Below are positions 14,868-18,379 of a stretch of DNA of 64,000 nt, piece by piece. The stretch covers positions 434,001 through 498,000 of the forward strand of contig PMSI01000001.1 in NCBI GenBank assembly GCA_003168375.1, written 5' to 3'. This stretch comes from Vulcanimicrobiota bacterium (GTDB lineage Bacteria; Vulcanimicrobiota; Vulcanimicrobiia; Vulcanimicrobiales; Vulcanimicrobiaceae). Under the pieces are notes generated by a model that worked only from the letters and a program-made list of their open reading frames with translations, ran no database searches and was not told the origin of the DNA. Every line of letters begins with the position of its first letter. Within the stretch, counting starts at the first letter, position 1. The position numbers were made by a program, and so were the translations under genes.

Positions 14868-16080
14868 GAGCGTCGCCGGGCTCGAGGCGCTCGATCGTCG
14901 TGCGCGGCTCCGCCTCGCGGTAGCCGTACACCCGTAGGACCGACTCCCCGGTCAGCAGATCCCAGAGCGGATCGACCACGAGCTGGCGGCGCCAGGACGT
15001 CAGGTTCACGACGTCACCGAGCGCTTCGGCGGTCTGCGGCGCCTCGCGCGCGATGCGCTCGAGCGCCGCACGCGGCAGCAGCAGCGTCGTCGGGAGATCG
15101 TTCTCGGCGGCCAGCGCGCTGACCAGCACCGCCATCGTCGAGACGAGCGCCTCGCGCTGCGGCCCCAACGGCTTCGGCGCGCGCGGCGGGAGCTCGTCCT
15201 CACCGATCGCCTCGCCGCGCTGGACCGCCTCGACGATCCGCTCGCCCAAGTTGCGCCGCGTCCCCGCGTCGATGCGCCGCAACTGCGAGAGCTCGTCGAC
15301 CGACTTCGGCCGCAGCTGCACCAGGCCGATCATCACGTCGTCCGGGAGCACGTACTTCAGCGGAATGTTGCGCTCGCGCGCGTAGCGGTCGCGCAGGTGC
15401 GCGAGCTCGTTGAGGATCCCGAGCTCGCGCCGGTTCATCCGCGCGTTCCCCGAGACGCGCTGGTACAGCCGCTTGGGATCGTTGCGATACGTGCGCAGCT
15501 CGACCAGCGCCGGCATCTCCTCCGCGGCCCAGCTCCCGCGCCCGCGTGCGACGAGGCGTTCGCGCAGCGTGTCCTCGAGGGTGAAGAGGTACCGCACGTC
15601 GTCGACCAGATACTCGACCTGCTTGGGCGTGAACGGTCGCGTGCTCCAGTCGCTGACGGTCTGCGACTTGCGCAGCGTCACGCCGCACAGATCGCGGACG
15701 AGATCGAGCAGCGAGATCGAGAGCCCGTAGCCGACGAACGCCGCCGCGACCTGCGTGTCGAACACCTCGCGCGGAAGCGTCTCGAACGCATCGGCGAGGA
15801 TGCGCAGATCCGAGGAGAGTGCGTGGCCGACGACGTGCGCGCCGGCCAGCGCGCCGACCAGCGGCCGGAGGTCGCGGAGCGCGAGCGGATCGACCAGCGC
15901 AACGCCGTCGTCGAACAGCAGCTGCACGACCATGAGGTGCGGCGTATACGACTTCTCGGTGTGGAACTCGGTATCGAGACCGATACGCGGTGCGCGAGCG
16001 ATGCGCTCGCAGAGCGCAGCGAGCGACTGCGGTGTATCGACCAGGTCGACAGCGTGGCCTGAGTCCGCGCCGGGGTTCAT
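14842..16080 (-). CDS. rnd: Ribonuclease D-like 3'-5' exonuclease
   Basis: The 412-residue protein has the DEDDy exonuclease domain: Asp36 and Glu38 in GLDTEFH, Asp91 in SSDLRIL, and Tyr157/Asp161 in YLVDDVRYL. It is followed by an HRDC domain (ERNIPLKYVLPDDVMIGLVQLRPKSVDELSQL) and a second helical region, as in RNase D of about 375-400 residues. It trims the 3' ends of tRNA precursors and other small RNAs. ATG 16080 overlaps the upstream VTT gene's stop as ATGA, so the two are co-translated. It converges with the secreted gene at 14310. Confidence 0.92.
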   Translation of the reverse strand: MNPGADSGHAVDLVDTPQSLAALCERIARAPRIGLDTEFHTEKSYTPHLMVVQLLFDDGVALVDPLALRDLRPLVGALAGAHVVGHALSSDLRILADAFETLPREVFDTQVAAAFVGYGLSISLLDLVRDLCGVTLRKSQTVSDWSTRPFTPKQVEYLVDDVRYLFTLEDTLRERLVARGRGSWAAEEMPALVELRTYRNDPKRLYQRVSGNARMNRRELGILNELAHLRDRYARERNIPLKYVLPDDVMIGLVQLRPKSVDELSQLRRIDAGTRRNLGERIVEAVQRGEAIGEDELPPRAPKPLGPQREALVSTMAVLVSALAAENDLPTTLLLPRAALERIAREAPQTAEALGDVVNLTSWRRQLVVDPLWDLLTGESVLRVYGYREAEPRTTIERLEPGDAPTAESATG

Positions 16081-16757
16081 CGTTGCACCGGTGACGCGGT
16101 GCGGATTTCGGCGGGCGGCGAGGCGTGGCGGCTGCGGCGGTGTGGGAGGCGAATGTGATGCTTCTCCGCGTAGGCTTGTGCAGGGACGAAGACGTGCGCC
16201 TCGAGGGCGTCGGACGCCGCGTCGCCGAACACGGCGAGGACGGTGCAGATCGGGATGGCGACGGCACACATGGTGTAGACTTGGCGAAAGATCGGGACGC
16301 GTAGCGCGGCGGCCGTCTGCGTGGCGATCGTTCCGCCCAGCCCCGGAATTATGCGGATCACGATCAGGAACATCGGCGAACCGATCTGAAAGTGGCGTGC
16401 CCAGCCGGGCAGCCGTTCGACGTTCCTCTTGACGTCGAACGCGTCGGAGGTCCGCAGCGCCACGAGGTAGCCGATGATCGCGGCCAGCACGAGACCGACC
16501 GCGTTCACGACCGCACCCCAGACGGGCCCGAACAGGACGCCGTTCATGATCGCCAGCGCGTCGGTGACGGAGAACGGCGCCGACGCGACGATCGCGAACA
16601 CGAGGACGGCGAGCGGCATCGCAAGCGGACCCAGCTGAGCAAGCACATGCTCGACCCAGGGGCGGTGAGAGACGACGTACGCGGCCAACGCGAACGACGC
16701 GAGCAGGATGAACGCTGCCTCCACGCGGCGCAGCACACGGACGATTCCAGGGGTCAC
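16077..16757 (-). CDS. VTT-domain (DedA/TVP38-like) membrane protein
   Basis: From GTG 16757 this is a 226-residue integral membrane protein with about five hydrophobic segments. The central part, ALAIMNGVLFGPVWGAVVN, then IIGYLVALR and RIIPGLGGTIATQTAAALR, has the G-rich re-entrant pattern of the VTT/SNARE-associated (TVP38/TMEM64, DedA) family, whose members move lipid carriers or act as lipid scramblases. The start is uncertain: the frame stays open to 16949 but the extra residues look unlike protein, and no strong SD is seen. It overlaps RNase D by 4 nt. Confidence 0.78.
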   Translation of the reverse strand: MTPGIVRVLRRVEAAFILLASFALAAYVVSHRPWVEHVLAQLGPLAMPLAVLVFAIVASAPFSVTDALAIMNGVLFGPVWGAVVNAVGLVLAAIIGYLVALRTSDAFDVKRNVERLPGWARHFQIGSPMFLIVIRIIPGLGGTIATQTAAALRVPIFRQVYTMCAVAIPICTVLAVFGDAASDALEAHVFVPAQAYAEKHHIRLPHRRSRHASPPAEIRTASPVQR

Positions 16758-16845
16758 CGCAGGGCTTCTTTGCGGGATCGCCGTGTTCGCCTCCGCGCGC
16801 GACGAAGTGCGAGAGCTTCGCGAAAGAACCCCCCCACTTCTGGGG

Positions 16846-16891
16846 TTGACCCTCACCAGGATGTAGCAGTACGATGATGACACCTCGAGGT
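16846..16891 (+). promoter_or_regulatory. Predicted promoter with a palindrome at the start site
   Basis: TTGACC (16846-16851) and TACGAT (16870-16875) are separated by 18 nt. The perfect palindrome ACCTCGAGGT (16882-16891) sits exactly where transcription would begin and could be an operator. No protein gene follows on this strand until the terminator at 17122-17150. Confidence 0.45.
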
Positions 16892-16910
16892 ACTGACTCA
16901 ACGACACACG

Positions 16911-16965
16911 GGAGGGCGGCTTGACGTCGCAAGATCCACCCGGGTCCAAGGCACCGACCGGCTGA
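16911..16965 (+). other. Mini-ORF 1 with strong SD (14 codons, TTG start)
   Basis: The ribosome-binding sequence GGAGGGCGGC (16911-16920) is followed directly by TTG at 16921 and a 14-codon frame (MTSQDPPGSKAPTG) ending at TGA 16963-16965. The start is 4 nt after the GGAGGG core. The same layout recurs at 17032-17086. Coding is unproven. Confidence 0.25.
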
Positions 16966-17031
16966 CTGCGCGCCGGCCGGTGACCGAAACGACAACCGAA
17001 TTGTCCAAGCGCAAACCAGCATCCGATGGCA

Positions 17032-17086
17032 GGAGGGCGGCATCAGTTCGATGACCGAGGGTCCACCGAAGGAGACAGCGTCGTAA
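17032..17086 (+). other. Mini-ORF 2 with strong SD (14 codons, ATC or internal ATG start)
   Basis: GGAGGGCGGC recurs at 17032-17041, followed directly by ATC at 17042 and a frame of 14 sense codons (ISSMTEGPPKETAS) ending at TAA 17084-17086. The internal ATG at 17051 is 13 nt from the SD core. Length, SD sequence, and a Lys at codon 10 match mini-ORF 1. Coding is unproven. Confidence 0.25.
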
Positions 17087-17121
17087 CGGTCGATTGACCG
17101 CTGCGACAAAACCGAAATACG

Positions 17122-17150
17122 AAGGGCCACGCCGGATCGGCGTGGCCCTT
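17122..17150 (+). terminator. Strong rho-independent-type terminator
   Basis: AAGGGCCACGCC pairs perfectly with GGCGTGGCCCTT around a 5-nt loop. On the plus strand it is followed by a T-rich stretch (TCGCTTTTCTTC), so it would end the candidate small RNA. It also lies 26 nt past the stop of the leftward DUF4142 gene and may serve both directions. Confidence 0.75.
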
Positions 17151-17176
17151 TCGCTTTTCTTCGCCTTTTGTCAGGA

Positions 17177-17851
17177 CTAGTGGTAGGCGGCGAGTTTGAC
17201 GCTGGTCACGCCGAGCGCTTGCGCGAGGTCGTAGTGCGCTTGGTCCGCGATGCGGTGATAGTTGGCGTCGGCTGCGGCACCGAACTTTTTGTCGATGTCG
17301 TTCATGACCGCTTCGTGGATCTGGTGGGTCACGAGGTGGTCGAGCTGCGTGCCTTCATAGTACGTTCCGCCGACGAGCCCGAGCCCGACCACGCGCTTGG
17401 CGAGCACCGCTCCGTGCAAGGCCGGCGCCGGAAACTTCACGCCGGCTTTGGTCGCGATCGCGACCGCATCGTCGACGGCGAAGTTCTGCACCGCGACGAA
17501 CGAGCCGACTTTGGCTGCACCGTATTGCTTGGTGAGCTTCGCGACTTCCGCGTTCGCGGTCTTCGCGCCGGCCAGCGCGGTCAACGCCTTGACGAGCGAG
17601 AAGTGGCCGGGCGCACCGCCCGCGGTGACGAGCGAGATGGTAGCTTGCAGGTCGGGCGCTCCGGTGTAGGCGGCGCCGTCGCCGCCGGCCGTGCCGGGCG
17701 GCATTCCGTGGTCCATGCCGCCGGCCATCATGCCGCCGGACATCGAACCCGTGCTCATCGGCATCGGTGAGGACATCTGCGCGAAGGCGGGGGCGATACA
17801 GAGTGCGGCCAGCGCCGCGCCGGCCGCTGCGGCCGTGAATCGTTTGATCAA
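17177..17851 (-). CDS. DUF4142-like secreted ferritin-fold protein with Met/His-rich N-terminus
   Basis: The 224-residue protein starts with a signal peptide (MIKRFTAAAAGAALAALCIA, cut after AFA). The mature N-terminus is rich in Met, Gly and His (MSSPMPMSTGSMSGGMM then MDHGMPPG), a composition that often binds copper or silver. The rest is all-helical and matches the DUF4142 layout: a helix with VAKLTKQYGA, then LDHLVTHQIHEAV and a final helix ADQAHYDLAQ. DUF4142 proteins are periplasmic four-helix bundles related to ferritin-like folds, with no settled function. A role in metal handling is inferred from the Met-rich stretch. Confidence 0.7.
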   Translation of the reverse strand: MIKRFTAAAAGAALAALCIAPAFAQMSSPMPMSTGSMSGGMMAGGMDHGMPPGTAGGDGAAYTGAPDLQATISLVTAGGAPGHFSLVKALTALAGAKTANAEVAKLTKQYGAAKVGSFVAVQNFAVDDAVAIATKAGVKFPAPALHGAVLAKRVVGLGLVGGTYYEGTQLDHLVTHQIHEAVMNDIDKKFGAAADANYHRIADQAHYDLAQALGVTSVKLAAYH

Positions 17852-17917
17852 ATGCGTTCTCCAGAAAAAAGTAGTCCGCCGATCGAACGGCTCCCGACGG
17901 AGAACGGATTGTCCCTG

Positions 17918-18379
17918 TCAGCCTGACCCTTCGACGGGCTCAGGGGAAGGCTCGACCGCCGCGATCGAGCTTTGGTCCGAGGCATCGCTGCTCGCTTCGG
18001 TCCCCAGGAAAGCCGCGAGGATCTCGAGCCCGACGGCCGGGCTGGTCGCGCGCAGGCTGAGCGCGAGCACGTTTGCGTCGTTCCAGCGGCGGGCGCCCTC
18101 GGCGGTCACGGCATCGCCGCACAAGGCGGCCCGGATCCCGCGCACCTTGTTGGCCGCGATCGAGATCCCGGTGCCGGTCCAGCAGCAGACGATCCCGACG
18201 TCGGCGCGTCCCTCGGCGACGGCGGCGCCGACCGCGCGGCCGATCGAGGCCCATTCGGTTTCTGCTGCGGCCTCACCGAGGGCGCCGAAGCGCTCGACGG
18301 CGGCGCCGCGCCGGTTCAGCTCCTTCACGATCGCGTCGGTCAGCGGGCCGACGTCGTCCGATCCAATCGCACAGCGCAT
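17918..18379 (-). CDS. RpiB/LacA/LacB family sugar-phosphate isomerase
   Basis: The 153-residue protein matches RpiB: start MRCAIGSD, the active-site region IVCCWTGTGISIAANKVRGIRAALC with Cys as the general base, and ARRWNDANVLALSLR for phosphate binding. RpiB interconverts ribose- and ribulose-5-phosphate; close relatives isomerise other sugar phosphates. Two points are odd. The usual SDHAG near the N-terminus is SDDVG, so the catalytic-site His of the loop is replaced. The last eleven residues (EPSPEPVEGSG) come from a copy of the short dispersed repeat, which also supplies the stop region, so the native C-terminus was replaced or extended. Confidence 0.82.
   Translation of the reverse strand: MRCAIGSDDVGPLTDAIVKELNRRGAAVERFGALGEAAAETEWASIGRAVGAAVAEGRADVGIVCCWTGTGISIAANKVRGIRAALCGDAVTAEGARRWNDANVLALSLRATSPAVGLEILAAFLGTEASSDASDQSSIAAVEPSPEPVEGSG
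17922..17944 (+). repeat. Short dispersed repeat, copy B (end of the rpiB-like gene)
   Basis: Core CCTTCGACGGGCTCAGG. Orientation relative to the host gene is opposite to copies A and C: here the gene reads the other strand, giving SPEPVEGSG at the C-terminus. Confidence 0.65.

Follow-up and report, generated by a model that had tools for sequence, protein, structure and literature searches.

Within the window, the 64,000-nt stretch of DNA analysed here, a short plus-strand unit lies between a VTT-domain gene and a gene at 17177-17851. The VTT-domain gene is encoded on the minus strand (in the 227-aa form starting at 16760, homologues align from about residue 5-9 onward), and the gene after the unit is also on the minus strand, that is, convergent to it. 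Because both flanking genes are read from the minus strand, the unit stands alone between them (Table 1). A preliminary description of this DNA had proposed an autonomous small RNA of about 280 nt without a recognisable gene, with a promoter, a palindrome possibly bound by a regulatory protein, two hairpins and a strong terminator. Its signals were recovered: the promoter pair is the only sigma-70-like site within the 2 kb of 16000-18000 (9 of 12 positions, where shuffles average 0.2), the palindrome falls at the expected start site, 6 nt past the -10 box, both hairpins are found by sequence and in folds, and the terminator is as strong as described. The 275-nt strand also folds better than its shuffles (z -2.7). 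What holds of the autonomous RNA is a conserved unit of about 275 nt with signals of its own, which would be transcribed on their account; what has to be amended is its content, as the unit also carries mini-ORFs.

Table 1. Sequence features of the unit and their positions in the window
Feature	Position	Strand	Details
Promoter	16846..16875	+	-35 TTGACC, 18-nt spacer, -10 TACGAT
Palindrome	16882..16891	+	ACCTCGAGGT; expected transcript start; read as 5'-terminal hairpin ACC-UCGA-GGU
Shine-Dalgarno of mini-ORF1	16911..16916	+	GGAGGG; AAGGAGG in many other genera
Kernel hairpin P2	16916..16930	+	GCGGC-UUGAC-GUCGC; start codon in loop
Mini-ORF1	16921..16965	+	UUG start; MTSQDPPGSKAPTG, then stop
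Predicted pause Pro6-Pro7-Gly8	16936-16944	+	CCA CCC GGG
Hairpin 1	16952..16982	+	5' strand is the tail of mini-ORF1
Shine-Dalgarno of mini-ORF2	17032..17037	+	GGAGGG; invariant in genus alignment
Second kernel hairpin	17038..17057	+	CGGCAUC-AGUUC-GAUG-A-CCG
Mini-ORF2	17051..17086	+	AUG start; MTEGPPKETAS, then stop
Hairpin 2	17080..17107	+	mini-ORF2 stop falls within its 5' strand
Intrinsic terminator	17121..17151	+	14 pairs, then U-rich; conserved within genus

The absence of a gene was probably a misreading: the unit holds two tiny ORFs, each preceded by a strong Shine-Dalgarno site, and the only element conserved throughout the family is where the first of them begins. The same probably applies to the operator. 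Among 79 family members, 71 have a -10-like box at the matching place upstream, and in these a hairpin begins 4-9 nt after it; its stem has at least five Watson-Crick pairs in 35 of the 71, against 4.8 expected from shuffles. The stem sequences differ wholly between genera (GGCAUCA/UGAUGCC, CGUACCC/GGGUACG, GUCUC/GAGAC, CGUGCCGG/CCGGCACG), which favors an RNA hairpin over an operator. A regulon operator also found no support when genomes were scanned for CTCGAG after -10-like boxes, since such sites are scattered and give no sign of a regulon. In the genus of the window, the 5' stem is only 3 bp long and ACCTCGAGG is invariant among nine aligned sequences, so that the palindrome may have a role as DNA within this genus.

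Distribution and genomic contexts

The unit is conserved among relatives, as the preliminary description had asked to be checked. By blastn against 60 related genomes it was matched in nine of ten congeners at 77-90% identity, and in the nine aligned sequences of the genus the promoter hexamers, both kernels (the blocks around the two Shine-Dalgarno sites) and the terminator are near invariant, while the pairs of hairpin 2 are kept by double changes at three positions. The match to the block at 16911 extends to other genera. This block was followed by a pattern search of 149 genomes of the phylum (Candidatus Eremiobacterota, now placed by NCBI in Vulcanimicrobiota) and then by a covariance model of 37 positions, which matches 83 of 99 family genomes; four of the 16 family genomes without a match are assemblies at least 90% complete. 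The copy number is nearly always one per genome, except that genus g49 has two copies in different contexts. The RNA is accordingly present in most sequenced members of a family of largely uncultivated soil bacteria. Outside the family, the covariance model gave no convincing match: two genomes with E about 0.02 were judged chance, as were pattern matches in Actinomycetota and others, most of which have a short P2 stem or none.

Rfam 15, searched at gathering and permissive thresholds, returned nothing credible for the unit, and above the gathering score only tRNAs, in the neighbouring DNA of one locus; no family of that collection therefore explains it. Two known RNAs were considered and rejected. 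For 6S RNA (RF00013) the best match lies elsewhere (G000:C4:1036232, 25.7 bits against a gathering score of 46.4), and for the small SRP RNA (RF00169) the match over the cut-off sits at G000:C6:565588, in agreement with the earlier statement that the unit lacks the SRP signature. The below-threshold 6S match (G000:C4:1036232-1036410) has counterparts in five relatives and is probably the diverged 6S RNA of the phylum. A plasmid collection gave zero blastn matches to the unit, and no small-RNA study on this phylum was found in the literature library searched. We conclude that the unit is a genuine small-RNA gene, previously uncatalogued and absent from Rfam; on this point, that it is a stand-alone RNA foreign to Rfam, the preliminary description was correct.

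Three genomic contexts were recognized, with neighbours named from their sequences save those tested with Pfam. The unit lies between VTT or VKOR genes and DUF4142-like, rpiB or NUDIX genes (context A: the window's genus, g6, g19, g53 and one g49 copy), beside an E1-alpha-like dehydrogenase gene with TetR or Amt (ammonium transporter) genes downstream (context B), or, in most genera, immediately before rimP-nusA and co-directional with it (context C). Three unrelated positions indicate that it is an independent gene rather than a leader. The placement in context C, directly upstream of and co-directional with an operon in most genera, is what speaks for a cis-acting leader or attenuator of the operon beside it, but this reading is highly improbable, since the next gene in the window is convergent, the neighbours in other genera are unrelated, and a promoter-like site of rimP follows the terminator of the unit. 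Moreover, in genomes of types A and B the rimP-nusA operon is found elsewhere, mostly with a leader hairpin of its own and without this RNA. Reciprocally, the type-A locus of type-C genomes contains at most a small unit that lacks the kernel. The structure downstream of the kernel differs among the three contexts, and because it is not common to them, a common output is not visible.

Several observations were made beside these loci. At the type-A locus of genus g25 (L154, L155), the place of the window's RNA is taken by a small unit that has TATAAT and TTGTCTCGAG but lacks the kernel; it is possibly a decayed or a different RNA. The 5' leader hairpin of rimP-nusA (GCGUGGGCAGGUCCCGCGCUUCGUUGUU) is conserved in nearly all family genomes looked at (for example L036, L066 and L164) and has no Rfam match. 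In genus g17 only, the unit is followed after about 200 nt by a gene for tRNA-Pro(UGG), which reads CCA (L018:1700-1774).

The kernel and its codon pattern

The kernel has the same anatomy in all contexts: GGAGG, a short spacer, NTG in a hairpin loop, 6 nt, and CAR RAY CCN CCN GGN, which as codons reads M-x-x-Q-[D/N]-P-P-G. Nearly all of the 79 members have x-x-Q-D-P-P-G. Three codons ahead of Gln, 67 of the 79 have TTG, three ATG, one GTG and one CTG, and the remaining members have ATC, ATT, ATA, ACG or no near start. The distance from start to CAR is fixed, and changes in length fall upstream of the start. The NTG start is absent in five genera (g4, g8, g21, g23 and g45) and in one g19 species, where the kernel persists. 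In six loci (L034, L039, L049, L058, L074 and L075), ATC, ATT, ATA or ACG is found at or beside the usual place of the start; if translated, these would be near-cognate starts. Gly8 is GGN in 78 of 79 members, a count obtained with the GG of this codon absent from the phylum search and extraction patterns and present in the seeds of the covariance model. Residues drift after Gly8, and the frame stops at PPG or one codon later in g19, g53 and the second (type-A) copy of g49.

The variable bases of the kernel lie mostly at third codon positions. Only five of the 3003 choices of five among 15 columns have an entropy as high as that of the third positions, and for the PPG columns alone the figure is 1 in 84, although both tests draw on a small number of columns, and at Gln4 the search patterns had allowed either A or G. 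This codon pattern favors translation of the ORF, as far as it can be judged from sequence. Pro6 is encoded by CCA in 62 members, CCG in 14, CCC in three and CCU in none, and Pro7 by CCG, CCC or CCT; CCA is the rarest proline codon in eight sampled genes of the window (6 of 190 proline codons). Most third bases at Gln4 and Asp5 are A and T; the genome has a GC content of 68%. The retention of A/T at the third positions of CAA GAT CCA in a GC-rich genome implies that the nucleotide sequence or the codon choice is also selected.

Constraint on RNA structure is also apparent. Comparison across genera reveals compensatory changes in two to three pairs of P2, and partners slid out of register are only 28-50% paired. 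In the copies linked to rimP, a three-way junction drawn by hand has 85.7% of its cells paired, against 31-46% when slid; its covariation is modest, with both sides changed in 10 pairs, which 5 of 500 shuffles also attain, and the slid versions have equally many double changes.

A second frame with Shine-Dalgarno site, start and DPP-K, 11-14 residues long, is found in the window's genus and in two others, and its stop lies in or beside the last hairpin. It reads MTEDPPK.. in most congeners and M[ES]PQDPPK.. in the two other genera; the window itself has Gly instead of Asp before Pro-Pro.

A proposed proline pause and its rivals

PPG counts among the sequences at which ribosomes pause strongly, and DPP and PPN are further strong examples (PMC4739656); the pausing at all three is relieved by EF-P (PMC4739656, PMC6544042). 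In E. coli, CCA, read there by a scarce tRNA, tunes pausing, and proline pairs avoid CCC and CCU in first position (PMC8129111). In mgtL and mgtP, a short ORF can switch the RNA between folds through its proline codons and EF-P (PMC6460261). An EF-P gene is encoded in the genome studied here.

Since the start and the PPG codons of mini-ORF1 are conserved and the neighbours are not, we read the unit as a proline-pause micro-ORF transcript. Put fully, it would be both a stand-alone small RNA of about 275 nt and a tiny mRNA, on which translation pauses early at a Pro-Pro-Gly micro-ORF, a reading to which we give nearly an even chance. Ribosomes would bind GGAGGG and initiate, mostly at UUG, in the loop of P2. 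Seven residues on, a pause at Pro6-Pro7-Gly8 is expected, and EF-P together with the CCA-reading tRNA would determine how strong it is. The selected trait would be the pause and not the tail of the peptide, leaving the frame past Gly8 free to drift or stop. While paused, the ribosome would cover P2 and the downstream RNA would stay folded; a ribosome running on would traverse the 5' strand of the hairpin that follows (16952-16982, or the junction stem in rimP-linked copies). We infer, beyond transcription, translation and pausing, that the pause could switch the fold, the stability or the trans activity of the RNA. More tentatively, the unit may be a trans-acting sensor of elongation capacity, that is, of EF-P activity or the supply of CCA-reading tRNA, and the leader of no gene.

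The kernel could also be a purely non-coding structured RNA, in which GGAGGG-hairpin-CARRAUCCNCC forms a binding module for a protein or ligand and the frame is accidental. The compensatory pairs in P2, the A/T third positions retained in a GC-rich genome, the persistence of the kernel in species without an NTG start and the fit of rimP-linked copies to a three-way junction are consistent with such a module. Yet it would not be expected to vary mainly at third codon positions, nor to keep a strong Shine-Dalgarno site at proper spacing to an in-frame start with a fixed distance to CAR; furthermore, PPG is a known pause motif, and a second copy has its own Shine-Dalgarno site, start and DPP-K frame. 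We regard the non-coding module as somewhat unlikely and rank the translated pause over it, at about one half versus about a third. As constraint acts at both the RNA and the codon level, each of the two readings may be partly true. A micropeptide gene, with the peptide of 8-20 residues (M-x-[PSL]-Q-[DN]-P-P-G..) as its product, is improbable. Such a gene would account for the residue-level conservation of Q-[DN]-P-P-G with synonymous changes, but the residues beyond Gly8 show no visible constraint, in some members the peptide has just 8-9 residues, and a peptide alone would not need the conserved choice of a rare codon.

Comparison with known systems

The nearest likeness to the translated pause is offered by mgtL and mgtP of Salmonella, in which a short ORF with proline codons lies near the 5' end of a structured RNA, and pausing sensitive to EF-P and tRNA-Pro selects between RNA folds (PMC6460261), a step only predicted for our unit. 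Mini-ORF1 shares with such leader ORFs their pause-prone proline codons. It differs in that mgtL and mgtP sit in the leaders of the genes they control, whereas the unit has its own terminator and no conserved downstream gene; a controlled gene is not seen behind it, with the window's next gene convergent and the neighbours differing among genera. Also, mgtL has alternating prolines and the unit a Pro-Pro-Gly core. Dual-function small RNAs, such as Spot 42/SpfP, SgrS and SR1, form another class of comparison. Like them, the unit appears, from its conserved sequence signals, to be small and independent, with a promoter and terminator of its own and a tiny ORF; unlike them, its conserved part is the start of the ORF and not a region that pairs with targets. 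It further resembles 6S RNA and the small SRP RNA in being a stand-alone, nearly single-copy structured RNA gene, but for both families the matches in these genomes are at other loci.

To our knowledge, proline-pause ORFs have so far been described as cis leaders of one gene. The reading proposed here predicts a ribosome parked at codons 7-8 and relieved by EF-P. If it is true, the unit would represent a new RNA class for the phylum, in which an independent RNA can read out elongation capacity and a pause is maintained without an attached gene.
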